The notes beneath the pieces are model-generated. The model searched no databases. It saw only the letters and a program-made list of their open reading frames with translations, and was not told the origin of the DNA. The translations under genes and the position numbers were made by a program. A stretch of 64,000 nt of DNA from Asanoa sp. WMMD1127 (GTDB lineage: Bacteria > Actinomycetota > Actinomycetes > Mycobacteriales > Micromonosporaceae): positions 5,704,001 to 5,768,000 of the forward strand of contig NZ_JARUBP010000001.1 of NCBI RefSeq assembly GCF_029626225.1, given 5' to 3'. This document shows positions 10,469 through 37,849 of the stretch, one piece after another. Numbering within the stretch: position 1 is the stretch's first letter; each line of letters starts with the position of its first letter.

Positions 10469-10489
10469 CGTGGATCAGTCTAGGTAACG

Positions 10490-10783
10490 TCAGGCGGCGG
10501 CGAGTACCCCGGCGACGGCCAACACGCCACAGGCCGTCGCCAGGCCGGTGAACACGAGCAGCGCCCGGGGCCGGACCGCCGTCGTGGCGGTGACCACCCG
10601 GCGCCGCCGTCGCCAGCCGGCCAGCACCGCGAGCGCGCCGGCGGCCGCCGCTCCCACGAACGGCAGTGGCGCGCCTCCGTGCAGGCCGAGGCGGGCGAGC
10701 AGGACGCCGGTGACCAGCGCGACCGCGGCGGTGCGCGTCCACGCCAGTGCGGTGCGCTCGGTCTGCAGACCGGGTCGGGTCAC
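10490..10783 (-). CDS. DUF202 family membrane protein
   Basis: A 97-residue membrane protein with the DUF202/YidH signature near the N-terminus (LQTERTALAWTRTAAVAL) and three hydrophobic segments. GTG at 10783 overlaps the stop codon of the preceding DUF202 gene by four bases (GTGA), which indicates translational coupling. It is the last clear member of the large leftward operon. DUF202 proteins usually occur in pairs; their function is unknown. Confidence 0.8.
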   Translation of the reverse strand: MTRPGLQTERTALAWTRTAAVALVTGVLLARLGLHGGAPLPFVGAAAAGALAVLAGWRRRRRVVTATTAVRPRALLVFTGLATACGVLAVAGVLAAA

Positions 10784-11133
10784 GACACCACCGCGAGCAC
10801 CACCAGGCCCGCGCCGAGCAGGCCGACGACACCGGACACCACGGCCAGCAGCGGAGTGAACGGCAGCGGCCGGTCGTTGCGCATCGCCCGCTGGACCGCC
10901 GACCACCGCCGGTAGGCGACCACCGGCAGCAGCGTGCCGCCGATCGCCAGCACGGCGGCGAAGGCTGTCCGCAACCCCGAGAGGGCCGAGCTCGGCAGGA
11001 ACTGGATGACCGCGATCGCGCCGGCCAGCAGCGCCAGCGCCGTCCGGATCCAGGCCAGGAAGGTGCGCTCGTTGGCCAGCGAGAACCGGTAGTCGGGCTC
11101 CGCGCCCTCCCGCTGCCAGCGTGGTTCAGCCAC
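10780..11133 (-). CDS. DUF202 family membrane protein (YidH-like)
   Basis: A 117-residue membrane protein. DUF202 signature: FSLANERTFLAWIRTALALL at residues 17-36. Two further hydrophobic segments follow, around 55-75 and 95-117. The start overlaps the end of the formylglycine-generating-enzyme gene by eight bases, and the stop overlaps the next DUF202 gene by four, so the pair is translationally coupled. Why a DUF202 pair should follow sulfatase genes is unclear; a role in transport of the released sulfate or sugar is speculation. Confidence 0.8.
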   Translation of the reverse strand: MAEPRWQREGAEPDYRFSLANERTFLAWIRTALALLAGAIAVIQFLPSSALSGLRTAFAAVLAIGGTLLPVVAYRRWSAVQRAMRNDRPLPFTPLLAVVSGVVGLLGAGLVVLAVVS

Positions 11134-12103
11134 CCGCGCGGTCCGGTTCGTCGATGGCGCACCGGAAGCCGGCGTGCCCGGTCGTGCTGTCCGGTGTGGA
11201 CGACGTCCGCGCCGAGACCCGGTAGCGGTTGCAGTAGGACTCGTGGCAGAGGTAGGAGCCGCCGCGCATCACCCGGGTGGCGCCGTCGGGCGGGCCGGTC
11301 GGGTCGCGCCGGGTGGCGTCGGATGCCGGCGCGTGCCAGTCCGCGCTGAACCAGTCGGCGCACCACTCCCAGACGTTGCCGGAGGTGTTGTAGAGGCCGT
11401 ACCCGTTGGGACGGAAGGCGTTGGCGGGCGCGGTGCCGAGATGGCCGTCGGCGCCGGTGTTGTGCCGGGGAAACGTGCCCTGCCAGGTGTTGCAGCGGTG
11501 CTGCCCGCGAGGCGTGAACTCGTCGCCCCACGGGAAGGTGGCCCGCTCGAGCCCACCGCGGGCCGCCTTCTCCCACTCGGCCTCGGTCGGCAGCCGCTTG
11601 CCGGCCCAGGCCGCGTAGGCGCTCGCGTCCTGCCACGACACGTGCACCACCGGGTGGTTGGACCGGCGCGCGACGTCGGAGCCGGGTCCCTCGGGCGTCC
11701 GCCACGCCGCGCCCTCGACCGGCAGCCACCACGGCGCGCCCGGGACCTGCCCGTCGAGCACGCGGTGCGCCGCCTCGCCCCGGACGAACGCGTGGAAGAC
11801 GTACGACCACCCGAACCGCTCCGCGTCGGTGACGTGCCCGGTCGCCTTGACGAACGCGGCGAACTGGGCGTTGGTCACCGCCTTGGGATCGATCCGGAAG
11901 GCCGCGACCTCGACCTCGCGGACCGGCCCTTCCCCGTCGTCCGCGAACGTGTCCTCGTCGTCGCTGCCCATCCAGAACGCGCCGGCCGGGATGCGCGCCA
12001 TCCCCCGGGCCGCCTCGTGGGGGTCGACCCGGCGCACCGGCAGCGCCGGCGGCGCCGGGGACGACCCGTGGCCGCCGCCCGGGGCGCAGCACGAAGCACT
12101 CAA
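11126..12103 (-). CDS. Formylglycine-generating enzyme (sulfatase maturation)
   Basis: A 325-residue aerobic FGE that would oxidise the active-site cysteine of sulfatases to C-alpha-formylglycine. Family motifs are clear: MARIPAGAFWMGSDD, ITN-like KAVTNAQFAAFV, HPVVHVSWQDASAYAAWAG, RLPTEAEWEKAARGG, NVWEWCADWF, RVMRGGSYLCHESYCNRYRV. The last one has the two copper-binding/catalytic cysteines spaced C-x4-C. The likely start is TTG at 12103 inside TTGA, overlapping the sulfatase stop; an ATG within MARIPAG would be too late. Placement directly after a sulfatase gene, with another sulfatase upstream, strongly supports the role. Confidence 0.92.
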   Translation of the reverse strand: MSASCCAPGGGHGSSPAPPALPVRRVDPHEAARGMARIPAGAFWMGSDDEDTFADDGEGPVREVEVAAFRIDPKAVTNAQFAAFVKATGHVTDAERFGWSYVFHAFVRGEAAHRVLDGQVPGAPWWLPVEGAAWRTPEGPGSDVARRSNHPVVHVSWQDASAYAAWAGKRLPTEAEWEKAARGGLERATFPWGDEFTPRGQHRCNTWQGTFPRHNTGADGHLGTAPANAFRPNGYGLYNTSGNVWEWCADWFSADWHAPASDATRRDPTGPPDGATRVMRGGSYLCHESYCNRYRVSARTSSTPDSTTGHAGFRCAIDEPDRAGG

Positions 12104-13596
12104 GACGGCACCTTGACGTCGAACGGCAGGCCACTGCTCTCGTCGCGGCAGATCTCCCGCAGCTGGTCGTAGAGCCCGGCGACCACCTCGGGCTCGTCGG
12201 CCCACCGGTCGGTCGTCTCGAAGGGGTCGGCGTGCACGTCGTAGAGCTGGCCGGTCGGGTGGTCGGCGTCCCACGGCGGGTTGGCGTGGGCCTTTCCGGA
12301 GCCCGAGGCGAACAGCGCGTCGATCGACGGCTCGGAGAAGCCGCCGCCGGAACCCTCCGCGAACACCGCCTTCCACCGGCCCGCCCGCAGCGCGAACCGG
12401 CCGCCGAGGCTGTGGTGCACGATCGGGCGGTCGGCGGGCGGGGGAGCGGCCTGGCCGGTGAGGGCGCCGAGAAGGTCGACGCCATCCTCGGCCGCGCCGC
12501 CCGGCAGCGACACGCCGGCCGCGGCCGCGACCGTCGGCAGCACGTCGGTCAGGCAGACGGGCGCGTCGAGGACGGCGCCGGCCGGGATGCGGCCGGGCCA
12601 GTGCGCCACGAACGGCTCGCGGTGGCCGCCGTCCCAGAGGTCGCCCTTCTGCCCCCGCCAGTCGCCGTTGGGCCGGTGTGCCGAGACGTCACCGTCGTCG
12701 GTGAAGATCGTCGGTGCGCCGTTGTCGCTGGTCACGATCACCAGCGTATTGTCGCGCTGACCACGGGCGTCGATGGCGGCGACCAGCTGCCCGACCGCCC
12801 AGTCGACCAGGCAGACGCCATCGGCCCGGTCGCCCAGCCCGGAGTGCCCGCGCACCACGTCGGGCGGGACGTTGGGCCGGTGCGGGGCCGACGGCGTGAC
12901 GTAGCAGAGGAACGGTTGGTCGGTCGACACGGTCGACAGCCACCGCACCGCCTCACCGACGAACCGGACATCCGCCTCGTCCTCCCGGAAACCGGGCGCC
13001 TCGAGCCCGGGTCGCTGCTCGGTCAGGTAGACCTGCTTCTCCCGATCGGGCACGCCGACGGTGCGATCCTGGTCGATGAAGGCGTACGGCGGCATGTCGA
13101 GCGACCCGGCGATGCCGAAGAACCGGTCGAAGCCCAGCGCGGTCGGGCCGCCGCTGACCGGCGCCGTGTAGTCGATGTCGTGCCCGAAGTCGGTCTCCAC
13201 GTCGTCGTGCAGGGTCGCGCCGGGCGCGAACGCGTCGCGGACCGACCCGTCCCGGTGCCGCCAACCGAGTCCCAGATGCCATTTGCCGAACGCGCCGGTG
13301 GCGTAGCCGGCGTCCCGCAGCACCGATGCCAGCGTGGGCCGGTCGGGCTCGATCAACGCCGGGCCGTGCCCCATCAGCACGAAGTTCTTGAGCGGCCCGC
13401 GCCAGGCGTAGCGCCCCGTCATCAGCGCGTACCGGCTGGGCGTGCAGACCGCGGACGCCGAGTGCGCGTCCGTTGCCCGCGCACCGCCGGCGGCCAGCGC
13501 GTCGATGTGCGGTGTCGGGATGGTGGACCCGTAGCAGCCGAGGTCACCCCAGCCCATGTCGTCGGCCAGCACGACCAGGATGTTGGGTCGAGTCAC
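12100..13596 (-). CDS. Sulfatase, S1 family, CTPSR type
   Basis: A 498-residue alkaline-phosphatase-superfamily sulfatase. The N-terminal metal site is ILVVLADDMGWGDLG, the formylglycine motif is VCTPSRYALMTGRY (Cys around residue 50), the GKWHLGL motif follows, and the second metal site is VIVTSDNGAP. No signal peptide precedes the catalytic domain, so the enzyme appears cytoplasmic and would act on imported sulfated sugars. GTG at 13596 overlaps the stop of the beta-helix glycosidase gene by four bases. The presence of FGE in the next position explains its maturation. Sulfated substrate is unknown. Confidence 0.9.
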   Translation of the reverse strand: MTRPNILVVLADDMGWGDLGCYGSTIPTPHIDALAAGGARATDAHSASAVCTPSRYALMTGRYAWRGPLKNFVLMGHGPALIEPDRPTLASVLRDAGYATGAFGKWHLGLGWRHRDGSVRDAFAPGATLHDDVETDFGHDIDYTAPVSGGPTALGFDRFFGIAGSLDMPPYAFIDQDRTVGVPDREKQVYLTEQRPGLEAPGFREDEADVRFVGEAVRWLSTVSTDQPFLCYVTPSAPHRPNVPPDVVRGHSGLGDRADGVCLVDWAVGQLVAAIDARGQRDNTLVIVTSDNGAPTIFTDDGDVSAHRPNGDWRGQKGDLWDGGHREPFVAHWPGRIPAGAVLDAPVCLTDVLPTVAAAAGVSLPGGAAEDGVDLLGALTGQAAPPPADRPIVHHSLGGRFALRAGRWKAVFAEGSGGGFSEPSIDALFASGSGKAHANPPWDADHPTGQLYDVHADPFETTDRWADEPEVVAGLYDQLREICRDESSGLPFDVKVPS

Positions 13597-15221
13597 GTGC
13601 GGCAGCTCCCGTCGGTGCTGCGGTAGATCCGTACCGCGTTGGTGGTCGCCGGGTCGATGTCGAAGGAGCCGGCGTTGTTCAGGCACGCCCCGTTGGCGTA
13701 CACGTTCTGGAAGTTGATGTTGCGCATCTTGTGCGTGCTGTCGATGCCCCGCACGATGTTCGGCTTGGTGTAGCTCGTGTAGGCGTGGATGTTCCGGAAG
13801 ATGAGCTGCTCGATCTCGCCGTAGCCGCGCGCCGGGTCGTACCACTTGTTGTTGTCGATGGTGAGGTTGAAGAGCCGGAAGGTGGCGTTCTCGATCCGGA
13901 TGTCCTCGAACAGATAGCGCGACAGCGTGCCGCTGCCGGCGTGCAGCGCGCGGAAGATGCCGGACTTCTCGATCTGGTAGTGCTCGGCGTGGATGACGTC
14001 GTTGTCGTAGACGTGGAACGTCGAGCTGTCCTCGTGGATGTTCCAACTGATCATGAACGGCGCGCCGTTCTCCAGCTGCCAGATGGTGTTGTGGCGGGCG
14101 ATCGTGTCGCCCCAGAACAGCTTGATCGAGTCGTCGTTCGACTTCACGAAGTTGTGCTGCAGCACGCTCTTGTTGCCGCCGACCATCCCGTCGGTGCTGT
14201 ACCACCAGGACATCGTCTTGACATTGTGGATGGTCGTGTACCGGGCCAGCGCACGGACGTTGAACCGGGGAGCGTCGACGAACGTGATGCCCTCGACGAG
14301 GAGGTTCGACGAGGTCTGGTCCGCGATGTCGATCATGCCGGGCTGGTTCTTGTTGGCGTCCTGGTCGCCCGTGTCCATGAACAGTCCGGAGATGACGCCG
14401 CGGCCCTTGATGGTGACGTCGTGCACCGAGCCGGTCGCGATGAACGCGGCCGAGACGAACGCACCGCCCGCGACGTAGATCGTCTGGCCGGAGGTGATCG
14501 GCTGGCCTGACCCGACATTGTGGACACCGGGGCCGAAGTAGCGGACGTTCGGGTCGCTCGGCGACGGCACGTCCACCTCGGGCGGGTTCGCGAACACCAG
14601 CATCGGGTGGAGAACCGGGTTGTGGATCTCGGGCTGGAACTCGACGGACAGGTTGCCGGGCCGGGTGAGCGTGAACGTGCAGGTGCTGCCGGCGAAGCTG
14701 GTGACCACCGCGGCCGAGTAGGGGCGCACCAGGCAGCCGGTCGCGCCGGGCGTGGTCTTCGTGACCCGCACGGTGACCGCGCCGGAGAACGAGAACGAGG
14801 TCCACGAGGTGTCCGCCTCGCGGTTGGTGTCGGCCTTCTTGGCGGTGGACCTGTAGACGAACGACGGCACCGGGCCGCCCGCCTGTTGCACGGTCACCGC
14901 GTACTGGTCCGAGGCCGGGATCCCGGCCGGCCCGGGGTAGGTGGTGAGCTGGTCGGGCGTGCCCGGCGCCGGGTCGATGCCGCCGTAGGGCAGCGTCGCC
15001 CGGTGCGCGGCGATCTCGTCGACGGTGGCCGCGGTCGACGCCGCGATGCTGTCGGCGATGTCGTCGACGACCGGCACGGTCCCGCTGATCGGGGTGACCG
15101 TGCCGCCGAAGTCGTACTGCGCTCCGGTGTAGGGCGGTCCGTCCGCGCGCGCGGTGCCCGCGGGCAGCAGGGCGGCCACGAGCGCGGCGACGGCGACGAG
15201 GGGGCGGAGGGTGCGTGGCAT
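13593..15221 (-). CDS. Secreted right-handed beta-helix glycosidase (GH-N clan, GH49/GH28-like)
   Basis: A 542-residue exported protein. A signal peptide (LVAVAALVAALLPAGTARA) is followed by a beta-sandwich-like region and then parallel beta-helix coils. Diagnostic stretches are VRYFGPGVHNVGSG, QTIYVAGGAFVSAAF, VHDVTIKGRGVISG, and the acidic NDDSIKLFWGD followed by WQLENGAPFMISWN. These resemble the active-site Asp cluster of dextranase/isopullulanase (GH49) and polygalacturonase (GH28). It probably cleaves an extracellular polysaccharide whose fragments are then imported. ATG at 15221; there is a 20-bp gap to the sulfatase gene upstream, the only real gap in the operon. Family assignment to GH49 is tentative. 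Confidence 0.7.
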   Translation of the reverse strand: MPRTLRPLVAVAALVAALLPAGTARADGPPYTGAQYDFGGTVTPISGTVPVVDDIADSIAASTAATVDEIAAHRATLPYGGIDPAPGTPDQLTTYPGPAGIPASDQYAVTVQQAGGPVPSFVYRSTAKKADTNREADTSWTSFSFSGAVTVRVTKTTPGATGCLVRPYSAAVVTSFAGSTCTFTLTRPGNLSVEFQPEIHNPVLHPMLVFANPPEVDVPSPSDPNVRYFGPGVHNVGSGQPITSGQTIYVAGGAFVSAAFIATGSVHDVTIKGRGVISGLFMDTGDQDANKNQPGMIDIADQTSSNLLVEGITFVDAPRFNVRALARYTTIHNVKTMSWWYSTDGMVGGNKSVLQHNFVKSNDDSIKLFWGDTIARHNTIWQLENGAPFMISWNIHEDSSTFHVYDNDVIHAEHYQIEKSGIFRALHAGSGTLSRYLFEDIRIENATFRLFNLTIDNNKWYDPARGYGEIEQLIFRNIHAYTSYTKPNIVRGIDSTHKMRNINFQNVYANGACLNNAGSFDIDPATTNAVRIYRSTDGSCRT

Positions 15222-15241
15222 GGGCGTACCCGCTTCCTGGC

Positions 15242-16642
15242 TCAGCCGAATCGGCGTTGGTGTTTGGCTTCCGGGTCCCACTCGTTGAGGCCCGCGGCAC
15301 CGAAGGCCGGCGCCAGCACGTAGTGGTCGTAGGTCTGCGCCAGGCGGTCCCGCAGCAGCGCGTGGTGCCGCGCCACCTCATCCGCGTGCGCCGGGTCGTC
15401 GACCAGGTTGGTCAGCTCGCACGGGTCGTTCTCGAGGTCGAAGAACTGCCAGGGCCGGCCGCCGTGCGCGTCGCCGAGCACCGTGTACTTGTAGCGGCGC
15501 GTCCGGATGCCCCGCCACGTCTCGTCGTGGAACGGCAACCCGGGCCGCATCTCGGCCACGAACTCGAGCAGCACGCCCTCCCGGTCGACGGAGGAGCTCT
15601 CGCCGCGCACCAGCGGGCTCAGGTCGATGCCCGGCTTCGGGTCCCGGGGCGTCACGCCGGCCAGGCCCAGCAGGGTCGGGAAGAGGTCCTCGGTGCAGAC
15701 CGGGTCACCGACCACGGACGCGGGCGTGCCGGCGCCGGAGACGATCAGCGGGATGCCGAGCGACTCCTCCCACGGCCGCTGCTTGGCCAGCAGGCCGTGG
15801 GAGCCGAGCAGCTCGCCGTGGTCGGCGGTCAGCGCGATGACGGTGTTGTCGAGCTGACCGTTGGCGCGCAAGGCGGCCACCAGCCGACCGACGTTGTCGT
15901 CGAGGTTCTCGATCATCGCGTAGTAGACGCGCAGGTCGTCGAGCAGGTCCCGGCCGTGCGGTCCCCGCTTGTTGTAGTCCTTGCCGAGCTCGACGTTGTC
16001 GCGCAGGACCAGCTCCCGGTCGCGCCAACGCTCGACATATGACTCCGGCGCGGTGAAGATCGGGTGCGGCGGCTCGACCGACAGCACGGTGGCGAACGGG
16101 CGGTCGCCGACCGCGCCCAGATGTTCGATGGCCAGGTCGAAGAGCCCGTCGGTCTGGAACCCCTCGATCTTGTGGGGTGTCGGGTCGTCCTCGTTCCAGA
16201 AGTAGGTGTCCCACGGGTCGTTGCAGATGTCGAAGCCGCCGAACCGCTCGAACCGGCCCTGGAACGGCCGGGGGACGGGCGTACGCGACGCCTTGACGAC
16301 GTTGTGGCCCGGATAGTGGCCGAAGTTGCCGTAGAGGTGCCACTTGCCGAACAGCGCGGTGGCGTAGCCGGCGTCGTTGAGCTCGTCGGCGAGGGTCCGC
16401 TCGGCCGGCGACATCCGCCACTCGATCGACGGGATGAACCGCGTGTGCGCGTACTCCCCGGTCATCAGCGTGAACCGGTAGGGGACGCAGACCGGATAGG
16501 TGGAGGACGCGGCATCGAACCGCGTGCCCGCGGCCGCCAGCGCGTCGATGTGCGGTGTGCTGACGTTGGGGTCGCCGTAGCAGCCGAGCGCCTGCCGCCG
16601 GAGCTGGTCCGAGATGATGAGGATGATGTTGGGCCGGCTCAC
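15242..16642 (-). CDS. Sulfatase, S1 family, CVPYR type
   Basis: A 466-residue sulfatase distinct from its neighbour. Metal site IILIISDQLRRQALGCYG; formylglycine motif YPVCVPYRFTLMTGEY (C-x-P-x-R with Tyr at the fourth position); ALFGKWHLYG; second metal site VIALTADHGELLGSHGL. It is closer to the choline-sulfatase/iduronate-type branch than to the first sulfatase, so two different sulfate positions may be handled. No signal peptide is present. GTG at 16642 overlaps the permease stop by four bases. An FGE-modified cysteine is expected because the core C-x-P-x-R is intact. Confidence 0.88.
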   Translation of the reverse strand: MSRPNIILIISDQLRRQALGCYGDPNVSTPHIDALAAAGTRFDAASSTYPVCVPYRFTLMTGEYAHTRFIPSIEWRMSPAERTLADELNDAGYATALFGKWHLYGNFGHYPGHNVVKASRTPVPRPFQGRFERFGGFDICNDPWDTYFWNEDDPTPHKIEGFQTDGLFDLAIEHLGAVGDRPFATVLSVEPPHPIFTAPESYVERWRDRELVLRDNVELGKDYNKRGPHGRDLLDDLRVYYAMIENLDDNVGRLVAALRANGQLDNTVIALTADHGELLGSHGLLAKQRPWEESLGIPLIVSGAGTPASVVGDPVCTEDLFPTLLGLAGVTPRDPKPGIDLSPLVRGESSSVDREGVLLEFVAEMRPGLPFHDETWRGIRTRRYKYTVLGDAHGGRPWQFFDLENDPCELTNLVDDPAHADEVARHHALLRDRLAQTYDHYVLAPAFGAAGLNEWDPEAKHQRRFG

Positions 16643-17523
16643 TTGATGCCTCCAGAGGTCAGGCCGCTGACGAACTTGCGCTGCAGGGCCAGGAACAGCA
16701 GCACGACGGGCGCCATCATGAAGATCGCTGCCGCGCTGGTCAGGCCCCAGTCGGTGGAGTTCTGGTCCTGGAAGGCGAGGAAGCTGGTCGACACCGGCCG
16801 CAGCTCGGGCGTGTGGATGAACGTGATCGCCCAGAAGAACTCGTTCCAGGACCACAGCGCCACGATCAGCGCGACGGTCAGGAAGCCCGGCCAGGCCAAC
16901 GGCAGCACGACCCGCCAGGCGATCTGCAGGCTGGACGCGCCGTCCAGCCGGGCCGCCTCGGTGAAGTCCTTGGGAATCTTCAGCAGGAACGACCGCAGCA
17001 GCAGCGTCGCGAACGGCGCGTCAGTGGCCCAGTAGATGATGATCAGGCCGAACAGGTTGTCGGTCAGGTGCAGCTGGGTCCAGAGGAAGAACAGCGGCAC
17101 CAGGAACAGTTGGACGGGCAGCGCGCTGCCGAGGAACAGGTAGCCGATGACCGCGCCGCCACCCGGCACGTTGAGCTGGCTCAGCGCGAACGCCGCCAGC
17201 CCGGCGATGACGCACGTGCCGAGCACCGACCCCGCGCAGATGATCAGGCTGTTGCGCATGGTCGTGGCGAAGTCGCCCTGGGTCCACGCGGTGGTGAAGT
17301 TGTCGAGCGTGAACGAGGTGGGCGGCGCCAGCGGGTTGCTGCCGATCTCCGCGTTGTTCTTGAACGCGTTGAACAGCACGGCGACCAGCGGCCCGACCGC
17401 GAACAGCGCGAGCACGATCAGGATCAGGTAGTACGTGCCGCCCTGCAGTCCGAACCGGCGGCGACGCGGCGCGGGCGGCGCCACACCGGGCGAAGCCGGT
17501 CGTTGGAGAGTCGTGGCGCTCAT
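16639..17523 (-). CDS. Carbohydrate ABC transporter permease (CUT1, MalG-like)
   Basis: A 294-residue inner-membrane permease with six hydrophobic segments and the EAA loop EAARLDGASSLQIAWRVVLP (residues about 205-225) that contacts the ATPase. Closest family: MalG-type component of CUT1 oligosaccharide importers. ATG at 17523 overlaps the stop of the partner permease by four bases. No ATP-binding subunit is encoded in the operon, so a shared MsiK-type ATPase elsewhere is expected, as is common for actinomycete CUT1 systems. Confidence 0.9.
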   Translation of the reverse strand: MSATTLQRPASPGVAPPAPRRRRFGLQGGTYYLILIVLALFAVGPLVAVLFNAFKNNAEIGSNPLAPPTSFTLDNFTTAWTQGDFATTMRNSLIICAGSVLGTCVIAGLAAFALSQLNVPGGGAVIGYLFLGSALPVQLFLVPLFFLWTQLHLTDNLFGLIIIYWATDAPFATLLLRSFLLKIPKDFTEAARLDGASSLQIAWRVVLPLAWPGFLTVALIVALWSWNEFFWAITFIHTPELRPVSTSFLAFQDQNSTDWGLTSAAAIFMMAPVVLLFLALQRKFVSGLTSGGIK

Positions 17524-18419
17524 GCGTCCTCCCAACCCTTGCGGCGCATCCACTGGTAGACGGCCAGGATCACGGCGGTCACCAGGGTCATCGACAGGCC
17601 GAGGGCGGCGGCGTAGCCGGCCTCGTACTCGTTGAACGCCTGCTTGTACATCAACGTGGAGACGACCTCGCTGGAGCCGGCCGGCCCACCCTGGGTCATG
17701 ATGAAGATGTAGTCGAACGCCTTGAGCGTCCAGATGACCGTCATCAGCACGATGAACACCATCGTCGGGCGAATGCCGGGCAGCGTGATGTGGCGATACT
17801 GCTGCCAGTTGCTGGCACCGTCCACTTTGGCCGCGTCGTAGAGCGCCGGGTCCACGCCCTGCATCGCTGACAGGAAGATGACGGCCAGGAAGCCCCACCA
17901 GTGCCAGTCGACGACGAAGTTGACGCTCAGCAGCGAGGTGCGGGTGTCACCGAGCCACGACTGGTCCGAGCCGAGGAGATGGCCGACCCCGCTGGTCGGC
18001 GAGAGCAGCATCTTCCACACCGCCGCGTTGACCACGCTGGCCACCACGTACGGGATGAAGTAGAGCGCCCGGAACAGCATCTGGAAGCGCGTGACCTGGC
18101 TGAGGAGGTAGGCGCCGAGCAGGCCCATGGCGCCCGGCACCGACAGGAACAGCACGAACCAGATCAGGTTGTGCAGCAGGGCTTCGTGCACCTTGGCGTC
18201 GCGGAACGCCTCGACGTAGTTGTCGAGACCGATGAAGGTGGCCGGACCGAGGCCGGACCAGTCGGTGAACGAGTAGTACACGGTCGCCACGGACGGCCCG
18301 GCCACCACGACCAGGTTCAGCAGGAGCAGCGGCGCGAGGAACGCCCAGCCGACCACCGCCGCGCGCCGCCGTGCCCGGCGGGCGCCCGACCCGGTTCTGG
18401 GCGCGGCGGTGGCGGTCAC
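17520..18419 (-). CDS. Carbohydrate ABC transporter permease (CUT1, MalF-like)
   Basis: A 299-residue permease with six membrane segments (first at VVGWAFLAPLLLLNLVVVAG) and an EAA-like loop DAAKVDGASNWQQYRHITLP near residue 210. It pairs with the MalG-like permease. GTG at 18419 overlaps the binding-protein stop codon (GTGA); an in-frame upstream extension is antisense-type sequence within the binding-protein gene and was removed. Its gene order after the lipoprotein gene is the standard CUT1 order. Confidence 0.9.
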   Translation of the reverse strand: MTATAAPRTGSGARRARRRAAVVGWAFLAPLLLLNLVVVAGPSVATVYYSFTDWSGLGPATFIGLDNYVEAFRDAKVHEALLHNLIWFVLFLSVPGAMGLLGAYLLSQVTRFQMLFRALYFIPYVVASVVNAAVWKMLLSPTSGVGHLLGSDQSWLGDTRTSLLSVNFVVDWHWWGFLAVIFLSAMQGVDPALYDAAKVDGASNWQQYRHITLPGIRPTMVFIVLMTVIWTLKAFDYIFIMTQGGPAGSSEVVSTLMYKQAFNEYEAGYAAALGLSMTLVTAVILAVYQWMRRKGWEDA

Positions 18420-19816
18420 TGGCCGGACCCCTTGGCAGGCAGTTGCGGCAGGTTCCCGTCCGCCTTCTCCTCGGTGAACATCTGGTCGAGCTGCTTGCAG
18501 TAGTCCGCCGGCGTCAGCTTGCCGGTCAGCACCTGCTCCAGGCCCTCGTAGACGAACACGTCGGTCTTCGGCGGCCACCAGGTCCAGGTGACGAAACCGT
18601 AGTCACCCGAGGCGACCGCCTTGTTGACCGCGGCCAGCGCGCGCCCGGAGCGGGGGTCGATGCTGGTCGGAACGTCGCTGTCGGCGAAGTCGATCGGGAT
18701 GTTGTAGGTCGAGGGGACGTCGGCCATCCGCTTGAGCGCGGCCGTCTTGTCGCCGTAGTACCAGTTCAGATATTCGGCGGCGGCGTCCTTGTTCTTGCTC
18801 GCCTCGTTGATGGCGAACGAGCCGCCGATGCCGATCGGCAGCATGTCGGCCTTGACCTCGGCCCGCAGCGGCGGAGTGGGCATCCAGTCCCACTCGTTGT
18901 CGTTCTTGGCCTTGGCCCCGAAGTACTGGCCGACCTGGCTCATGAACCAGTTGCCCTGGGGCACCATGGCCACCTTGCCCTTGCCGAAGTTGGCCCCGAT
19001 CTCCTGCGACGGCACGGCGAAGTACTTCTCGACGCTGCCGCCGATCCAGCCCTTGTCGAAGTAGCCCTTGATCAGGTTGACCGCGTCGACGAACACCGGG
19101 TCGGTGAACTTGATCTCGCCCGTCAGCGCCTGGCGCAGCGCGTCCGGGCCGGAGTAGTGGTTCCAGAAGACCGTCATCAGCCATTCGCCGGCGGCCTTCC
19201 AGTCGACGTTCGACGAGCCGAACGGTGTGATGCCCTGGCCGGCCGCCTCCGTGGCGAGCGCCTCCAGCGACGCCCGGTCGGTCGGCTGGCTCCAGCCCTT
19301 CTGCTCGAACAGCGTCTTGTTGAAGTAGAGCAGCATCGTGTCGACCCGCATCGGCAGCGCGTAGAGCTTGCCATCGGTCGTGAACGCGTCCATCGCCCAG
19401 CGCGACAGCTTGTCCTTCAGACCGAACTTCTCGACGTACGGGTTGAGGTCCGCCAGCAGGTGCGCCTTGCTCCAGGCGATCGTCTGGGTGGCGCTCGGGC
19501 CGCGCACGACGTCCGGGCCGGACCGCGACTGCAGCGCCGTCTGCACGAGCCGGCGCAGGTCCTCGCCCTTGTAGAACGTGGTGTTGAGGTCGATCTCGGG
19601 CTTGGCCTTCTCGAACGCGGCGGCCACGTTCTCGGTGAAGTACTTCTGGTTGGCGTCGCCCTGGATGTCGAGCCAGAGGTCGACCTTGCCGGTCCCGGTG
19701 CCGGCCGAACCGCCGCTGTCGCCGCAGGCGGCGAGCAGGAGGCTGGGGCTGGACAGGCCGAGGGCGGTCAGGCCCGCGCCGGCGAGGAAGCGCCGGCGGG
19801 ACAGCGATGCGGTCAT
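18416..19816 (-). CDS. Extracellular sugar-binding lipoprotein
   Basis: A 466-residue family 1 solute-binding protein. The N-terminus has a twin-arginine-like motif (SRRRFLAGAG) followed by a lipobox (LLLAACG, lipidated Cys around residue 31), so it is anchored outside the membrane, possibly exported by Tat. Typical binding-protein features are WLDIQGDANQKYFTENVAAAFE, the tryptophan-rich C-terminal WTWWPPKTDVF, and SQEIGANFGKGKVAMVPQGN. ATG at 19816 overlaps the preceding gene by four bases. It probably captures the oligosaccharide released by the secreted glycosidase. Confidence 0.9.
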   Translation of the reverse strand: MTASLSRRRFLAGAGLTALGLSSPSLLLAACGDSGGSAGTGTGKVDLWLDIQGDANQKYFTENVAAAFEKAKPEIDLNTTFYKGEDLRRLVQTALQSRSGPDVVRGPSATQTIAWSKAHLLADLNPYVEKFGLKDKLSRWAMDAFTTDGKLYALPMRVDTMLLYFNKTLFEQKGWSQPTDRASLEALATEAAGQGITPFGSSNVDWKAAGEWLMTVFWNHYSGPDALRQALTGEIKFTDPVFVDAVNLIKGYFDKGWIGGSVEKYFAVPSQEIGANFGKGKVAMVPQGNWFMSQVGQYFGAKAKNDNEWDWMPTPPLRAEVKADMLPIGIGGSFAINEASKNKDAAAEYLNWYYGDKTAALKRMADVPSTYNIPIDFADSDVPTSIDPRSGRALAAVNKAVASGDYGFVTWTWWPPKTDVFVYEGLEQVLTGKLTPADYCKQLDQMFTEEKADGNLPQLPAKGSGQ

Positions 19817-21855
19817 GCTGCGTCCTCCGAGGGGATGGGGGTGATCTGGACGGACTGCGTGGCGGTGCGGCCCTGCTCGATCAGCAGCGCCACGCCGCCG
19901 CAGTCCAGGGCGGTGTCGTCGAGGTCCAACAGCTCGGCGCCGTCGACGAAGGCGGTGATCCGGGTGCCGGCGACGCGCAGCGCGAGCTGGTGGGTGTCGC
20001 CGTACGCCCAGGGAAAGGGTTGGGAGGCCAGGACCTCGGGCGCCGGGGCGTCGAGGTGCCGGACCAGCTCGACCCGGTCGCGGCCGGCCAGCCGCAGCGC
20101 GTAGTAGCGGCGCAGACCTTGCACGCGCGCGGCGACGCCGGTCGACTCGGCGAGGTGCGGCGTGACGTCCGCCGTGACGGTGTAGTCACGCCACTCGCGA
20201 GCGCCCTGGATCAGCAGGCCGGTGCCCCGGTTCTGCACCAGCCGGAACGGCTCGGGCCAGTGCGGGTCCCAGCGGTCGACGGCCTTGACCCAGGCCCGCC
20301 GCCACATCGCGCCCGGGTCGCCACCGTGCCCGACGTGCGCGTTGGCGGGCCGGGTGAAGGTGACCGTCGGGGCGCCGTCCCAGGTGAGCGACTCGAGCTC
20401 GATCGGGCCGGTGGATCGCAGGCCGATGTAGACGACCGGCTGGCCGCCGAGGTCGGGCACGGTCCACTCGGTGGCCCCGGCCGGCCCGTCGACCCAGGCG
20501 AGCGTGTCACCGTCGTCGGCGTAGTGCGCGAGGGTGAGGTGGAAGCCCGCGCCGCCCCGGACCTGGGCGCGCACGGTCTGCCCGCTGTAGAGGGTGGGGC
20601 TGGCGATCAGACCGTAGATCGGCATGTCCCGCGCCTCGGGCGGGATGAACGTGGGCGTGACCACGGTGGCGGCCCCGCCGACGGCGAGCCGGCCGCCGGG
20701 GTTGTGCAACCGGGCATCGCCGTCGTGCACGGAGAAACCCTGCAGGCTGTCCGGCAGTCCGAAGTGGAACCGCTTGCCGCGGGCCAGGTCACGCTCCGGC
20801 TGGCCGGCCCACGCGCGGCCGTGCGCGGCGAGCGTGAGCGCCTCGCGGGCCGCGTCGGTGACGGTGGAGCCGCCGTCGGTGCTGGGCAGATACATCCGGT
20901 CGGCGATCGGCCCCCGCCAGTCCGGGCCGTCGGCGATGCCGACCAGCCCGCCGAAGACGCCGCAGATCGCGCCCACGTCACCGGCGTTGGAGTCGGTGTC
21001 CCAGCCGGAGGTGTTGACCACCGTCATCGCCGGCAGGAAGGCGCCGCCGCTGCGCGCCAGGGCATGGACGACGGTCGCGTGGTTGGGCACCACATGGCAG
21101 TTGCCGCCGAAGAGGTGGTAGCCGTAACGCTCGTCGATCCGGGCTCGCGTGGTGGTCCAGTCAGCGTCGGCCGCGGCCCACTCGCGCACGTCGTCGACGA
21201 CCCGCCGGATCAGGCTGTCCGCCGGTATGAGGCTGACCGCCACGTTCAGCAGCTTGTCCATGTCGGTTTCGGTGAAGGCGCCCGCGACGAGGGCGGCCAC
21301 GACCCGCGCGGCGTGCACGGACTCGCCGTCGTGGCTGACCCGGGCGGCCCGCTCGACCAGGTCGGCCGCCGCCTCCGGGTCGCCGGGCCTGGTCATGGCG
21401 AAACCCTCGACGAAGATCTGCGCACCGACCTGCTCGGCCACGACGACGCCGTTGCGGGCGACCGAGCCGCTGTCGGGCGCGCGTACGCCGTCCTTGAGGT
21501 GGAGGTAGGCGGTGTGCTCCGTGGAGTTGCCGACGCCACCCCACCAGAGCACCGACGTGCCCTCGAGGATCTCGTTGAGCCAGGTGTCGCCGATCCGCTC
21601 CGACGCCGGCTCCGGGCCGTGGTCGCGCAGCGCCCGCGGGAACACGAAGGTGCCGCTGATGTCGTCGTCGGTGACCACCAGCAGGTGGTTCTTCAAGGGC
21701 AGGTCCACACGGTGGTTGACGTATCCGGTGATCTCGCCCAGCTCGCGGCTGATCCGGTCGTAGGTCCAGCCTTCGAACGGGCGGCCGAGGTAGACCGCGA
21801 TCACCTTGCCGAGCACGCCGGCGTAGACGCGCTCCTCGTAGTCGGTGGGGAACAT
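19813..21855 (-). CDS. ADP-ribosylglycohydrolase-family enzyme with C-terminal beta-sandwich extension
   Basis: A 680-residue protein. Residues 1 to about 340 form an ADP-ribosylglycohydrolase/DraG-type all-alpha domain: the early metal ligands lie in LLVVTDDDISGTF, and the late pair lies in TSGWDTDSNAGDVGAICG, where D-x-D binds the second metal. Residues about 380-680 are beta-rich with lectin/LamG-like segments (YTVTADVTPHLAES, DTHQLALRVAGTRITAFVDG) that resemble carbohydrate-binding or family-16-like sandwiches. No signal peptide is seen. Family enzymes hydrolyse ribosyl N- or O-glycosidic bonds, which fits the neighbouring ribose pyranase and ribokinase: it could release ribose from an imported ribosylated compound. 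Natural ADP-ribosyl-protein hydrolysis seems less likely here. Confidence 0.8.
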   Translation of the reverse strand: MFPTDYEERVYAGVLGKVIAVYLGRPFEGWTYDRISRELGEITGYVNHRVDLPLKNHLLVVTDDDISGTFVFPRALRDHGPEPASERIGDTWLNEILEGTSVLWWGGVGNSTEHTAYLHLKDGVRAPDSGSVARNGVVVAEQVGAQIFVEGFAMTRPGDPEAAADLVERAARVSHDGESVHAARVVAALVAGAFTETDMDKLLNVAVSLIPADSLIRRVVDDVREWAAADADWTTTRARIDERYGYHLFGGNCHVVPNHATVVHALARSGGAFLPAMTVVNTSGWDTDSNAGDVGAICGVFGGLVGIADGPDWRGPIADRMYLPSTDGGSTVTDAAREALTLAAHGRAWAGQPERDLARGKRFHFGLPDSLQGFSVHDGDARLHNPGGRLAVGGAATVVTPTFIPPEARDMPIYGLIASPTLYSGQTVRAQVRGGAGFHLTLAHYADDGDTLAWVDGPAGATEWTVPDLGGQPVVYIGLRSTGPIELESLTWDGAPTVTFTRPANAHVGHGGDPGAMWRRAWVKAVDRWDPHWPEPFRLVQNRGTGLLIQGAREWRDYTVTADVTPHLAESTGVAARVQGLRRYYALRLAGRDRVELVRHLDAPAPEVLASQPFPWAYGDTHQLALRVAGTRITAFVDGAELLDLDDTALDCGGVALLIEQGRTATQSVQITPIPSEDAA

Positions 21856-22238
21856 CAGAAGGGCACTCCCGCTCGCAGGATCACATTGGCGTACGGCGTG
21901 GCCTCACCGGTCCGCACCACCGCGCTCGCCGTCGCGCAGCGGTGCTTGAGCTCCGTGTGCGGCACGCTGTCGACCGGCACGCCCAGCGCGCGGACGCCGG
22001 CGAGCACCGCCTCGTCGGTCAGCTCGGCCGCGACGGTGGCCGCCTCGATCACGAGGTCACCCGCCATCGCCGCCAGTACGGCGCGGAACGACGGCACGCC
22101 GCGGGTCAGCGCGAGCTGAACCGTCTCGACTCCCGCGGGCACGGGCAGGCCGGCGTCGGCGACCACGATCGTGTCGGTGTGGCCCAGCCCGGCGACCAGC
22201 GAGGCCAGGCGCGGATGCCACAGTCCGGTGTCACGCAT
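21855..22238 (-). CDS. rbsD: D-ribose pyranase
   Basis: A 127-residue RbsD/FucU-family mutarotase that interconverts beta-pyranose and furanose ribose before phosphorylation. The RbsD-specific stretch GHTDTIVVADAGLPVP, then LALTRGVPSFRAVL, a late TGEATPYANVILRAGVPF with the substrate-binding residues, and the N-terminal His of GLWHPRL are all present. The sequence fits RbsD rather than L-fucose mutarotase. ATG at 22238 overlaps the end of the ribokinase gene by eight bases; the stop overlaps the next ATG by one base. Confidence 0.9.
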   Translation of the reverse strand: MRDTGLWHPRLASLVAGLGHTDTIVVADAGLPVPAGVETVQLALTRGVPSFRAVLAAMAGDLVIEAATVAAELTDEAVLAGVRALGVPVDSVPHTELKHRCATASAVVRTGEATPYANVILRAGVPF

Positions 22239-23136
22239 GAGCAGCCTCCTTCTCGGCGGCCAGGAACAGGTCGAGCTCGGCGCCGGTCGGCATCGCCGAC
22301 TGCGCGCCCATCCGGGTCGTGGCCAACGCGCCGGCGGCACACCCTCGGCGCACCGCCTGGTCCAGGTCGATCCCCGAGGCCAGTCCGACGGCCAGCGCGC
22401 CGCAGAAGGTGTCGCCGGCCCCGGTGGTGTCCACGGCGTCGACGGGGAACGGCGGGTGCGTGCGGGCGCCGGTGCCGTCCGCGCTGACCGCGCCCCGGGC
22501 GCCCAGCGTCACCACGCAGGCCGCCGGCCCGTGCCGCAGCAACGCCCGCGCGTCGCCGCCGAGCTGCCGCGCCTCGCCCTCGTTGACGACCAGCACGTCG
22601 ACCACGCCGAGCAGCTCGGTCAGCGCGGCGGCCCCGGCCGGCGGCAACGGCGCCGCGTTGAGCAGCACCGAGGCGCCGGCATCGCGGGCGCGCCGGGCCG
22701 CGGCGAGGCAGGTCTCCAACGGGATCTCGAGCTGCAGCACCAGCACGTCGCCCGGCGCGAACAGGCCGTCCAACGAGGAATCGTCGAGCCGCGCGTTGGC
22801 GCCGGGCGCCACCACGATCGTGTTCTCGCCGGCCGCCTCCACGACGATCAGCGCGACGCCGGTCGCGATGCCGGCCCGGGTGACGAGGCGGTCGAGCGGC
22901 AGCCCTTCGCGGGCGAGCGCGGCGCGCAGGTCGGTGCCGAACCGGTCGTCGCCGAGCGCGGCGACGAGCAGCGTCTCGGCCCCCAGCCGGTGCGCGGCGA
23001 CCGCCTGGTTGGCGCCCTTGCCCCCGGGGCCGGTGACCACGTCGGATCCGAGCACGGTCTCGCCCGGTGCGGGTAGCCGCGGCACGCCGACGACGAGGTC
23101 CAGGTTGGCGCTACCCACGACGACCACGCGGCTCAT
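22231..23136 (-). CDS. rbsK: Ribokinase
   Basis: A 301-residue PfkB-family kinase that phosphorylates D-ribose at O5. It has the N-terminal VVVVGSANLDLVV, the GGKGANQAVAAHRLG signature 1, and signature 2 DTTGAGDTFCGALAVGL with catalytic Asp. ATG at 23136 overlaps the LacI stop by four bases. Coupled with RbsD, it indicates that free D-ribose is an end product of the operon's pathway. The long open frame continuing upstream is an out-of-frame shadow of the regulator gene. Confidence 0.92.
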   Translation of the reverse strand: MSRVVVVGSANLDLVVGVPRLPAPGETVLGSDVVTGPGGKGANQAVAAHRLGAETLLVAALGDDRFGTDLRAALAREGLPLDRLVTRAGIATGVALIVVEAAGENTIVVAPGANARLDDSSLDGLFAPGDVLVLQLEIPLETCLAAARRARDAGASVLLNAAPLPPAGAAALTELLGVVDVLVVNEGEARQLGGDARALLRHGPAACVVTLGARGAVSADGTGARTHPPFPVDAVDTTGAGDTFCGALAVGLASGIDLDQAVRRGCAAGALATTRMGAQSAMPTGAELDLFLAAEKEAAHA

Positions 23137-24155
23137 GCGCCTGCCTCCTCGCCGGCCGGGTCGCCGCCGGGTGGGTCGGGGCAACCACACGAGCCGCGTC
23201 TGACCAGCGTGACCGGCAGCACGTCGGTGGGCGCCGTGGGCTGGGTGAGCAGGTGGTTGACGGCGGCGCGGCCCACGGCGGCGATCGGCTGGGCCATCGT
23301 GGTCAGCGCGGGCAGCGTGTAGGCGGCGCCGGGAATGCCGTCGAACGAGGCGACCGCGACGTCGTCGGGGCAGCGCAGCCCCGCCTCGGCGATGGCGCGC
23401 AGCACGCCGACCGCCTGCTCGTCGCTGGCGACGAAGACGGCGTCGGGTCGTTCGGGCCGGCCGAGCAGCTCGCGGGCCGCGCCGTAGCCACCCCGTCGGC
23501 CGAACGGCGCGTGCACGACCGGCATGGAGATGCTCTCCGCGTCGAGCGCGTCGCGCCAGCCCTCGACGCGGTCGGTCGCGGGCCGGACGTCCCGCGGCCC
23601 GCCGACGCAGGCGATGCGGCGGCGGCCGTGGTCGAGCAGGTGCCGGGTGGCCGCGAAGGCGCCACCGCGGTTGTCGACGAGGACGCCTGGCGCGGCCGCC
23701 CCGGGCACCTGGCGGTCCAGGCACACCCACGGCGTGCGCGCGCGCTCCAGGTCGCCGAGGAAGCCGGCGGGGCCGTGGGCGGGCACGATGAACAGCCCGT
23801 CCACCTGGCGGGCGAGGAAGGTCCGCACGTACGTCGTCTGCCGCTCGTCGCTCTCGGCGGCGTTGCCGATCAGCAGCGTGTAGCCCTGTGCGAACGCCTC
23901 TTCCTCGATCGCCCGGGCCAGCTCCGCGAAGAACGGGTTGGCGTTGTCCGGGATGACCAGGCCGAGCGTCATGGTGCGGCTCATCCGCAGCGAACGGGCG
24001 ATGCCGTTGGGGCGGTAACCGAGCTGTTCGATGGCGGCGAGCACCTTCGCCCGGGTCTGCGCGGAGACCGGACGCGGTCCGCCGTTGACCACGTAGCTGA
24101 CCACCGCGGGTGAGGTCCCGGCGAGCCGGGCCACGTCGGTGCGTCGAACCGCCAC
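23133..24155 (-). CDS. LacI-family regulator, first gene of the sulfated-glycoside operon
   Basis: A 340-residue repressor. The N-terminal helix-turn-helix is TDVARLAGTSPAVVSYVVNG, followed by the hinge (RSLRMSRTMTLGLVIPD) and a periplasmic-binding-protein-like ligand domain. The last 20 residues add a CGCPDPPGG cysteine-containing tail seen in some actinomycete LacI proteins. GTG at 24155 was chosen because GGAGG lies seven bases upstream; an ATG at 24176 is in-frame but overlaps an operator copy and has no ribosome site. As the first operon gene it is expected to be autoregulated and relieved by a ribose- or oligosaccharide-type ligand. Confidence 0.88.
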   Translation of the reverse strand: MAVRRTDVARLAGTSPAVVSYVVNGGPRPVSAQTRAKVLAAIEQLGYRPNGIARSLRMSRTMTLGLVIPDNANPFFAELARAIEEEAFAQGYTLLIGNAAESDERQTTYVRTFLARQVDGLFIVPAHGPAGFLGDLERARTPWVCLDRQVPGAAAPGVLVDNRGGAFAATRHLLDHGRRRIACVGGPRDVRPATDRVEGWRDALDAESISMPVVHAPFGRRGGYGAARELLGRPERPDAVFVASDEQAVGVLRAIAEAGLRCPDDVAVASFDGIPGAAYTLPALTTMAQPIAAVGRAAVNHLLTQPTAPTDVLPVTLVRRGSCGCPDPPGGDPAGEEAGA

Positions 24156-24170
24156 GCTGGTACCTCCGGT

Positions 24171-24238
24171 CAACACGAGTTGCGCGAGATGTGCTGCACA
24201 TCATGCGAAGCGGTTCTCAGGTTGCGCAACACGTGTTG
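24171..24238. promoter_or_regulatory. Two LacI-type operators upstream of the operon
   Basis: CAACACGTGTTG (24227-24238) is a perfect 12-bp palindrome with the central CG typical of LacI operators. CAACACGAGTTG (24171-24182) is a one-mismatch copy. Centres are 56 bp apart, and both are flanked by TTGCGC words, one being the palindrome GTTGCGCAAC at 24221-24230. They lie immediately before the LacI start, so loop-mediated autorepression is plausible. Confidence 0.75.
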
Positions 24239-24321
24239 AATGGCCGTTACCGGACCGAGACCCGTGATCATCGCGTTGCGTTCCGTGCGGATTGACATCA
24301 CCCGAGCGCTAATCCACCATT

Positions 24322-24339
24322 CCACTAACCACTTAGTGG
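24322..24339. promoter_or_regulatory. Probable GntR/YtrA operator
   Basis: CCACTAA at 24322-24328 and TTAGTGG at 24333-24339 form a perfect seven-base inverted repeat with a four-base spacer. The right arm runs into the ribosome site of the GntR gene. This position is typical for autorepression of YtrA-type regulators. The rest of the 24239-24321 gap shows no other clear site. Confidence 0.7.
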
Positions 24340-24348
24340 AGGATGCAG

Positions 24349-37737: not shown

Positions 37738-37745
37738 CTTCAGAC

Positions 37746-37832: not shown

Positions 37833-37849
37833 TTGTGACTTCCGGCAGG

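Follow-up and report, generated by a model that had tools for sequence, protein, structure and literature searches.

Thirteen co-directional genes on the minus strand (24155-10490) of the analysed window, a stretch of 64,000 nucleotides from Asanoa sp. WMMD1127, probably form one cassette, under LacI control, for the catabolism of an extracellular glycan that is sulfated and probably alpha-linked. Within it, an ADP-ribosylglycohydrolase-fold enzyme (ARH) would act as a cytosolic pentofuranosidase, probably yielding ribose; our probability for this reading is about 0.6. That the block is one co-regulated catabolic unit, as a first-pass annotation had assumed, is supported by a conserved gene order, a shared operator and the presence of an empty site.

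Organization and borders of the gene block

Coordinates and strand of the thirteen genes are as annotated in the first pass, and the spacing described there (eleven overlaps of 1-8 bp and one gap of 20 bp) is found again by coordinates. LacI and rbsK overlap by 4 bp, rbsK and rbsD by 8 bp, and rbsD and ARH by 1 bp; from ARH on, four overlaps of 4 bp each are followed by the single gap (15241-15222, between sulfatase S1 and the gene of the secreted GH49-like enzyme) and then by overlaps of 4, 4, 8 and 4 bp. Spacing alone gives no end of the block, as three further minus-strand genes are situated downstream: an EEP-family gene (10468-9668, 21 bp past the block), a maltokinase-cap gene (9639-9007) and an M14 peptidase gene (8963-6831). 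The block edge is real despite this tight spacing, because in Asanoa G001 the flanks nearly abut: the counterparts of window positions 10484 and 24313 lie 33 bases apart there. The twin operator sits just outside the interval annotated earlier and is counted here as part of the unit.

Among the six Asanoa genomes, two possess the intact cassette, one a reduced form and three none. The block is absent, with near-abutting flanks, from three of the five congeners and is therefore regarded as one cassette that is gained or lost as a whole. The two genes for DUF202 membrane proteins, one YidH-like (10780..11133, minus strand; PF02656, 2.6e-16) and one YidG-like (10490..10783, minus strand; PF02656, 6.2e-11), are accessory: among the five congeners, an orthologue of the former (88%) is found only in the cassette-bearing G003, where the YidG-like gene is also present. 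Within Asanoa the DUF202 pair goes with the cassette, but it falls outside the wider core.

Recurrence of the core in other genomes

The core consists of LacI, RbsK, RbsD, ARH, the CUT1 importer, S1, the GH49-like enzyme, S2 and often the formylglycine-generating enzyme (FGE). It is seen again in eleven further genomes, which belong to three orders and range from Micromonosporaceae to Kribbella and Jiangella, with identical gene order in ten of them; the conserved co-occurrence on which the first-pass proposal depended is thereby found, and the recurrence is more than chance. Full-length ARH of more than 50% identity is present in 10 of 151 genomes, and in eight of these ten it is adjoined by S1, the GH49-like gene and S2. 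Among the least conserved core genes are rbsK and rbsD.

The LacI-family repressor and the twin operator

The first gene of the block encodes a LacI-family repressor (23133..24155, minus strand; PF00356/PF13377), whose nearest NCBIfam models are those of RbsR, with scores under the cut-off. Upstream of it lies a twin operator, composed of a distal site (24227..24238), which is the perfect palindrome CAACACGTGTTG, and, about 56 bp away, a proximal site (24171..24182) with one mismatch. The perfect palindrome exists in one copy in the 8-Mb genome, and the degenerate form in two, both at the cassette (reversed control: 0); in G048, the count of the pattern equals that of the control (2 vs 2). The operator pair, with up to one mismatch per site, is found in all 13 cassette genomes.

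Extra GH49-like genes are also fronted by the twin operator in two genomes. A GH49-like gene of the MAG HOG30 lies in a separate unit with an operator pair, and in Rugosimonospora such pairs precede two additional GH49-like genes located on another contig. The Jiangella cluster contains a second beta-helix protein, an orthologue of which (68%) is preceded in G054 by a third operator site. We propose that the LacI protein binds the twin operator. The conserved operator would provide a direct handle on the cassette, as identifying the inducer of a single repressor would reveal the substrate.

ARH, RbsK, RbsD and the released sugar

ARH (19813..21855, minus strand) is 680 aa long, carries a CBM66-like module at its C-terminus, reaches the curated profile score of PF03747 and has the ADP-ribosylglycohydrolase fold. 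Its acidic motifs D63-D65 and D286/D288, which we take to be metal ligands, are invariant in 34 sequences. We propose that it is a cytosolic pentofuranosidase, probably yielding ribose; the freed sugar is most likely D-ribose, judging from the ARH fold and the linkage to rbsK and rbsD. RbsD (21855..22238, minus strand) exceeds the curated equivalog cut-off for D-ribose pyranase (PRK11797, 130.1 bits vs 93). The PfkB kinase (22231..23136, minus strand; PF00294, 3.9e-61) has a ribokinase as its best solved match (6znx, E 2.4e-64) and is named RbsK-like, because its score for the ribokinase equivalog TIGR02152 (271.6 bits) is under the curated cut-off of 299.65.

A rather unlikely alternative, though one with several observations on its side, keeps the cassette and its logic but has ARH free a sugar other than D-ribose, with RbsD and RbsK handling another pentose, or ribose that arrives otherwise. 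It is favoured by the RbsK score, by the two Kribbella loci, in which no rbsK match is found, and by the long-ARH loci elsewhere: 62 of the 80 looked at contain CUT1 importer homologues without S1, S2 or the GH49-like gene, and among these 62 there is no RbsD match and an RbsK-like match in only three, so that ARH need not yield ribose. Against it stand the RbsD score and the linkage of ARH to rbsK in two ARH subfamilies, since in the second, short-form one 23 of 24 loci examined have an RbsK-like gene next to ARH (in L136, no rbsK match lies within the 13 kb of the locus). A linkage of ARH, permease and ribokinase genes is also described for staphylococci in parts of PMC3637587. Ribose, the released sugar proposed in the first pass, is thus a candidate, favoured by RbsD and by the ARH-rbsK linkage and disfavoured by the RbsK score and by the many long-ARH loci without RbsD.

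Importer and putatively secreted enzyme

As expected from the first pass, a CUT1-type importer is present, with a solute-binding protein (18416..19816; PF01547, 2.8e-23; lipobox recognized by eye) and two permeases of sugar-importer type (17520..18419 and 16639..17523; PF00528, 1.7e-16 and 2.2e-19), all on the minus strand. No dedicated importer ATPase is found by Pfam among the 13 genes, and a shared ATPase encoded elsewhere is therefore probable.

The gene identities of the first pass agree with Pfam and NCBIfam except for the secreted protein (13593..15221, minus strand), which matches no Pfam family at E values up to 1 and is for this reason named GH49-like rather than filed as GH49. Its placement is based on profile matches (GH49 dextranase, 2.1e-23; isopullulanase, 5.8e-16) and on a model (pLDDT 78.6) that matches the solved GH49 fold. 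Residues D344, D363 and D364, presumably the catalytic Asp triad, are invariant in 7 sequences, and the TDG and NDD motifs share columns with dextranase 6nzs. With its signal-peptide-like N-terminus, the enzyme looks secreted, as had been supposed, and the putative triad is intact.

These components bear on the substrate, which might instead be a small sulfated riboside (nucleoside-like or a plant metabolite) and not a polymer. ARH homologues identified by fold matches act on ribosides, and in staphylococci ARH has a nucleobase-type permease and a ribokinase as neighbours (parts of PMC3637587). The reading is nevertheless quite improbable, as the core includes a GH49-like hydrolase whose N-terminus resembles a signal peptide, present in three copies each in G054 and G073, and GH49-like genes elsewhere lie behind the same operator. 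The usual cargo of CUT1 importers is, moreover, oligosaccharides.

Sulfatases and FGE

S1 (15242..16642, minus strand; PF00884, 1.1e-51) carries the motif CVPYR and S2 (12100..13596, minus strand; PF00884, 5.5e-51) the motif CTPSR; both possess the C-x-P-x-R and GKWH-type motifs of type I formylglycine (FGly) sulfatases. By motif they are FGly-dependent sulfatases, for which sulfate ester hydrolysis is predicted. CVP(Y/F)R and GKWHLYG are kept in 10 of 11 S1 orthologues (in L121 this region lies outside its best match), and CTPSR and GKWHLGLG in 11 of 11 S2 orthologues. FGE (11126..12103, minus strand; PF03781, 1.3e-81) matches the proven FGE 6s07 over its full length (E 9.1e-140) with the CHESYC segment aligned, and its paired cysteines, which we assume to be those of the active site, are kept in all six orthologues found. 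The cytosolic sulfatases with their activator, suggested in the first pass, are consistent with these data: neither sulfatase has a signal peptide visible by eye, and FGE is genuine by its match to proven FGEs.

It is highly improbable that the two enzymes are instead phosphodiesterases of the formylglycine type, or phosphonate monoester hydrolases, and act on a phosphorylated substrate. This family shares the formylglycine chemistry, and phosphonate monoester hydrolases are among the weaker matches of S1, but the best solved matches of both proteins are named sulfatases (2qzu for S1; 7oze, 2.2e-64, for S2, by a wide margin) and GKWHL is kept in the orthologues covered.

Proposed pathway

By binding the twin operator upstream of the gene that encodes it, LacI would silence the unit until an inducer sugar appears, as the conserved footprint suggests. 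The GH49-like enzyme would cut the polymer outside the cell, and the binding protein and permeases would import sulfated oligosaccharides, probably with the shared ATPase. FGE would activate S1 and S2 in the cytosol, whereby two kinds of sulfate ester may be removed. ARH would then hydrolyse an alpha-pentofuranosidic bond, most likely releasing D-ribose, which RbsD would convert from pyranose to furanose and RbsK phosphorylate for the pentose phosphate pathway. As no cytosolic glycosidase other than ARH is found among the 13 genes, other residues of the oligosaccharides are unaccounted for.

The first-pass annotation knew of no such pathway, and a search of the open-access literature, which is part of the whole literature, likewise yielded no described equivalent among the papers listed; nor did it yield a paper on sulfated polymers with ribofuranose.

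ARH as a possible new class of glycosidase

To our knowledge, the ARH fold is known only for the reversal of ADP-ribosylation. ARH has the fold of ARH3 and DraG, but that it is a regulatory, DraG-like de-ADP-ribosylating enzyme and not a catabolic glycosidase is scarcely credible, given its carbohydrate-binding-type module, the sugar importer genes beside it in 62 further loci, and the lack of any match to an ADP-ribosyltransferase family among the 13 genes; the context thus argues against activity on ADP-ribosylated substrates. Long ARH is found in Actinobacteria, Alphaproteobacteria, Chloroflexi and Deinococcus. Tentatively, and with more doubt than confidence, we suggest that proteins combining the ARH fold with a CBM66-like module are widespread intracellular pentofuranosidases of a new class (in actinomycetes with sulfatases, in rhizobia without), and that a natural sulfated glycan with alpha-D-ribofuranosyl residues is broken down by the cassette. 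If true, the ARH fold has been put to use in a glycosidase for sugar degradation, and a so far unrecognised sulfated, ribose-bearing polymer exists in soil or plant surroundings.

Comparison with known systems

Compared to ARH3 and DraG (PF03747), the cassette ARH shares the fold and both acidic motifs, whereas it adds two beta-rich regions, one of them the CBM66-like module, is placed in sugar import operons and has 12-20% identity to solved members. Rhizobial operons of the order LacI-SBP-permease-permease-ARH, which were not found named in print, possess an orthologous long ARH, LacI and CUT1 import as in the cassette, but no matches to sulfatases, FGE, the GH49-like enzyme or rbsD; rbsK is rare in them, and a UgpC ATPase is annotated downstream of ARH. 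With GH49 dextranases and isopullulanase, the secreted enzyme has in common the beta-helix, a beta domain at the N-terminus and the positions of the catalytic Asp residues, whereas identity is about 16-20%, a Pfam match is lacking and the context is sulfated.

The rbs ribose operons combine RbsR, RbsK and RbsD with an RbsABC importer. A LacI-type regulator, RbsK and RbsD occur together in both systems, whereas the cassette has a CUT1-type importer instead of RbsABC and adds sulfatases, FGE and hydrolases. In Bacteroidota, polysaccharide utilization loci for carrageenan, ulvan, fucoidan and similar polymers comprise SusC/SusD import, a secreted endo-hydrolase and several FGly sulfatases. These loci and the cassette alike combine a secreted endo-hydrolase, a dedicated importer, several FGly sulfatases and genes of sugar catabolism under common regulation at one locus. 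Despite this general similarity, the cassette has LacI and an ABC importer of CUT1 type in place of SusC/SusD, both of its sulfatases and FGE look cytosolic, and its sole candidate for a cytosolic glycosidase is an enzyme of the ARH fold.

Organization and boundaries of the cassette

As described in the first-pass annotation, the cassette consists of 13 co-directional genes, which run on the minus strand from LacI (24155) to the second of two DUF202 genes (end at 10490). Its tight spacing was likewise borne out: 11 junctions overlap by 1-8 bp, and the remaining one is a gap of 20 bp. The profile families found are LacI, PfkB, RbsD, PF03747 (the ADP-ribosylglycohydrolase-fold enzyme, ARH), SBP_bac_1, two BPD_transp_1, two sulfatases (S1 and S2), FGE (formylglycine-generating enzyme) and two DUF202; the secreted-looking GH49-like protein gave no match in the Pfam search. 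Since three more minus-strand genes follow downstream at short spacing, spacing alone cannot set the end of the cassette.

The boundaries are given by flank homology in three Asanoa genomes without the block, which indicates that it was gained or lost as one piece. In G001, homology to the window extends up to 10484 (position 7532 of the locus) and resumes at 24313 (position 7565). The edges correspond to window positions 10487 and 24555 in G004, and to 10541 and 26596 in G005, such that the divergent ABC genes are missing from the latter, too; the right edges vary among the three genomes. The cassette is intact in the window genome (7.97 Mb) and in G003 and absent from G001, G004 and G005; across the Asanoa genomes compared it is present or absent as one piece, the DUF202 pair included. 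A. iriomotensis (NZ_BONC01000008.1) possesses a reduced cassette, with LacI, rbsK and ARH left and the left flank inverted (L034/L202).

The listed start of the divergent ABC ATPase ORF (24240-25622, plus strand) directly adjoins the distal operator, but since G001 homology begins only at 24313, the real start may be further in. Elsewhere in the window, a TPP riboswitch is situated at 37731-37842 on the minus strand (63.5 bits).

Conservation of the core

The scan of genome contigs for ARH yielded 129 loci, of which the best 80 were compared. In seven of these 80, S1, S2 and the GH49-like gene occur together with ARH: in HOG30 (a Micromonosporaceae MAG), Dactylosporangium siamense, Kribbella pittospori, Kribbella capetownensis, Rugosimonospora africana, Catellatospora methionotrophica and Jiangella asiatica. 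With G003, G006, G054 and G073, added from further related genomes, the core (LacI, RbsK, RbsD, ARH, CUT1 importer, S1, GH49-like, S2, often FGE) is found in eleven genomes besides the window, belonging to three orders. Searching for the same order in other actinomycete genomes, as the first-pass annotation had suggested, showed the core order to be kept in all eleven except HOG30, where S2 directly follows S1 and, behind FGE, there is a GH49-like gene of 52-55% identity that may be a paralogue. In G054 and G073, S1 and S2 are separated by three GH49-like genes.

FGE adjoins the core in 7 of 12 cases (window, HOG30, Dactylosporangium, Rugosimonospora, Catellatospora, G003 and G006), a count limited by the sequence pieces of Jiangella and G073, which stop shortly after S2. 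No FGE was found within about 2 kb behind S2 in Kribbella, and the FGEs found in G054 lie away from the cassette. Full-length ARH with more than 50% identity exists in 10 of 151 related genomes, in eight of which the sulfatase set adjoins it, the exceptions being G002 and G114.

About 5.6 kb away from the K. capetownensis cassette, the opposite strand encodes a pair of CUT1-like permeases as well as an S1-like sulfatase (30%; L040, 4-2911). S1 of G054 (L121, 8545-9941) appears as two separate BLAST pieces, which may be due to a break in the frame or to the alignment.

The operator pair

Two CAACACGTGTTG-like palindromes (at most one mismatch), in the window at 24171-24182 and 24227-24238, precede LacI in the 12 regions examined as well as in HOG30 (L179), and the pair is present in 13 of 13 cassette genomes if the reduced cassette of A. 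iriomotensis is counted. Its spacing amounts to 55-57 bp, and to 90 bp in Jiangella. No pair was found in the G114 locus (L125), which contains a 54% identical ARH and no sulfatase match in its piece. The pair is the proposed binding site of the LacI repressor.

The perfect palindrome occurs as a single copy in the own genome, and the degenerate KCAACNCGNGTTGM twice, both times at the cassette (reversed control: 0). In eight of nine genomes, KCAACNCGNGTTGM is more frequent than in the control, the exception being G048 with equal counts (matches/control 2/0, 5/1, 6/1, 4/0, 5/0, 4/0, 2/2, 4/1, 4/1). As background, two operator matches were obtained in 77 other loci, the cassette locus L119 being set aside. 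When one mismatch is allowed, the own genome has 8 matching places versus 11 in the reversed control, and therefore the six places outside the cassette were rejected as further targets and are considered background.

In other genomes, judging from the position of the sites, putatively secreted enzymes are tied to the operator regulon. In HOG30, a GH49-like gene belongs to a separate unit with its own operator pair (L035). On a second contig of Rugosimonospora (L177), a pair directly precedes two extra GH49-like genes (53 and 59% identity), which are followed by a gene of the GDSL family. A third site in G054 (L180) is found where a divergent gene probably begins, whose product exhibits TAT-signal and beta-helix matches, both below cut-off, and is 68% identical to a Jiangella protein of 540 aa encoded between S1 and the GH49-like gene.

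A single operator-like site at L178, one of 13 elsewhere, is situated where a gene of TetR-like appearance (by eye) begins. Away from the cassette, the operator-like TCAACTCGGGTTGA or its complement was encountered at G054:C1:1024639 and G073:C1:7142997, both of one genus.

The GH49-like hydrolase, the sulfatases and their neighbours

Profile and fold of the GH49-like protein match GH49 dextranases and isopullulanase (model pLDDT 78.6, middling). In seven sequences compared, the Asp triad is invariant and most N-termini look signal-peptide-like by eye, which is consistent with secretion. Such proteins are rare, being found in 5 of 396 genomes of the phylum, the own one counted, with identities no higher than 35% for the remaining four. 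The sequence search with the second Jiangella beta-helix protein revealed no solved relative.

S1 and S2 look cytosolic, as in the window each overlaps the preceding gene and starts with the catalytic domain. Orthologues of both, where covered, retain the FGly and GKWH motifs. The nearest match of S1 is 2qzu; that of S2 is 7oze, followed by a GalNAc-6-O-sulfatase and S1_15 enzymes. Within the own genome, only S1 and S2 combine a PF00884 match with the FGly motif; a third PF00884 gene, with a hydrophobic N-terminal part, lacks the C/S-x-P/A-x-R motif and was rejected as a sulfatase.

The cassette FGE matches proven FGEs. Concerning DUF202, a role as general FGE partner is unsupported: when its profile was compared with 30 FGE-type loci, four of which (L205-L208) stem from cassettes already counted, DUF202 was detected within flanks of about 1.5 kb only at the window locus (L204). 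Among the five congeners, only G003 possesses an 88% identical orthologue, and all five contain a 51-53% relative elsewhere; in Catellatospora a DUF202 gene immediately follows FGE. The yidH-yidG pair near the putative sulfatase yidJ of E. coli K-12 (L203, 4609-7405) recalls the DUF202 pair behind FGE.

The ARH family and the released sugar

In the ARH model, which is good (pLDDT 88.4), an ARH3-like domain is seen together with a CBM66-like module (profile E 4.6e-5); a middle region, around residues 355-495, is barely covered in the fold comparison. CBM66 is a fructofuranose-binding module. Residues were counted over 74 loci and the window, drawn from 80 loci, with L040 not included and L066, L067, L070, L080 and L111 dropped for stops or N runs; alignment A2 contained 34 sequences.

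Among the best 80 of 129 loci, 62 combine ARH with CUT1 importer homologues in the absence of S1, S2 and the GH49-like gene; they are mostly Rhizobiales by record title. Eleven, including the A. iriomotensis locus, have neither sulfatase set nor importer homologues, several of them on short contigs. In these 62 loci, all within L042-L113, a long ARH is the sole evident enzyme beside the importer and, usually, LacI, and annotated examples exhibit UgpC after ARH. L045 (Frankia sp. RB7) and L104 (Mycobacterium sp. KBS0706) have the rhizobial-type arrangement, and their record names may be wrong. A plasmid of Sinorhizobium sp. B11 (L117, 7768-11088) carries two tandem ARH genes with LacI, a sugar ABC importer and UgpC, and one of Deinococcus aetherius (L114) a long ARH with GH2, trehalase-family, RICIN-domain and importer genes.

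Ribose as the product of ARH is suggested by gene linkage. RbsK is nearest to solved ribokinases, yet below the curated cut-off; RbsD lies above its own. Of 24 loci with short-form ARH relatives, which align mainly to residues 60-350, 23 contain an RbsK-like gene next to ARH (19 of 20 in a first comparison, then the twentieth and three of four added loci; exception L136). For the most part these loci belong to a single cluster type, in which LacI and CUT1 permeases are frequent, and so they do not amount to 24 independent cases. For staphylococci, the excerpt concerned of PMC3637587 gives an ARH-permease-ribokinase trio with no functional claim attached. Against the linkage stand the 62 importer-type loci, none of which contains rbsD and only three an rbsK-like match (L080, L088, L096), as well as the two Kribbella core loci, in which the rbsK search gave no match.

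A second, common cluster of LacI, CUT1 permeases, ARH and RbsK-like genes is found in the own genome (L126, 7.80 Mb) and in L127-L135; in L126, Pfam assigns both genes of a tandem pair to ARH, and part of an FGE-type domain is present in a 646-aa protein encoded there. No canonical rbs operon was seen around the gene for the second RbsD-family protein of the own genome, which shares 27% identity with the RbsD of the cassette; the neighbours look unrelated by eye.

Comparison with known systems

In the proposed pathway, a sulfated substrate would be cut by the GH49-like hydrolase and its fragments taken up by the CUT1 importer. The cassette contains no cytosolic glycosidase other than ARH, so that either ARH would be the main exo-enzyme or unlinked genes would contribute. 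The claim in the first-pass annotation that no described pathway joins ARH, ribokinase and sulfatase agrees with the open-access literature, where none was encountered among the matches listed: in the matching portions of the texts, PMC10434189 has the three in separate loci and PMC6773835 has ARH within a gene list. Neither the combination of the cassette nor an ARH-fold enzyme acting as glycosidase was found described in the open-access literature searched; the underlying logic of endo-hydrolase, importer, sulfatases and sugar kinase is already known.
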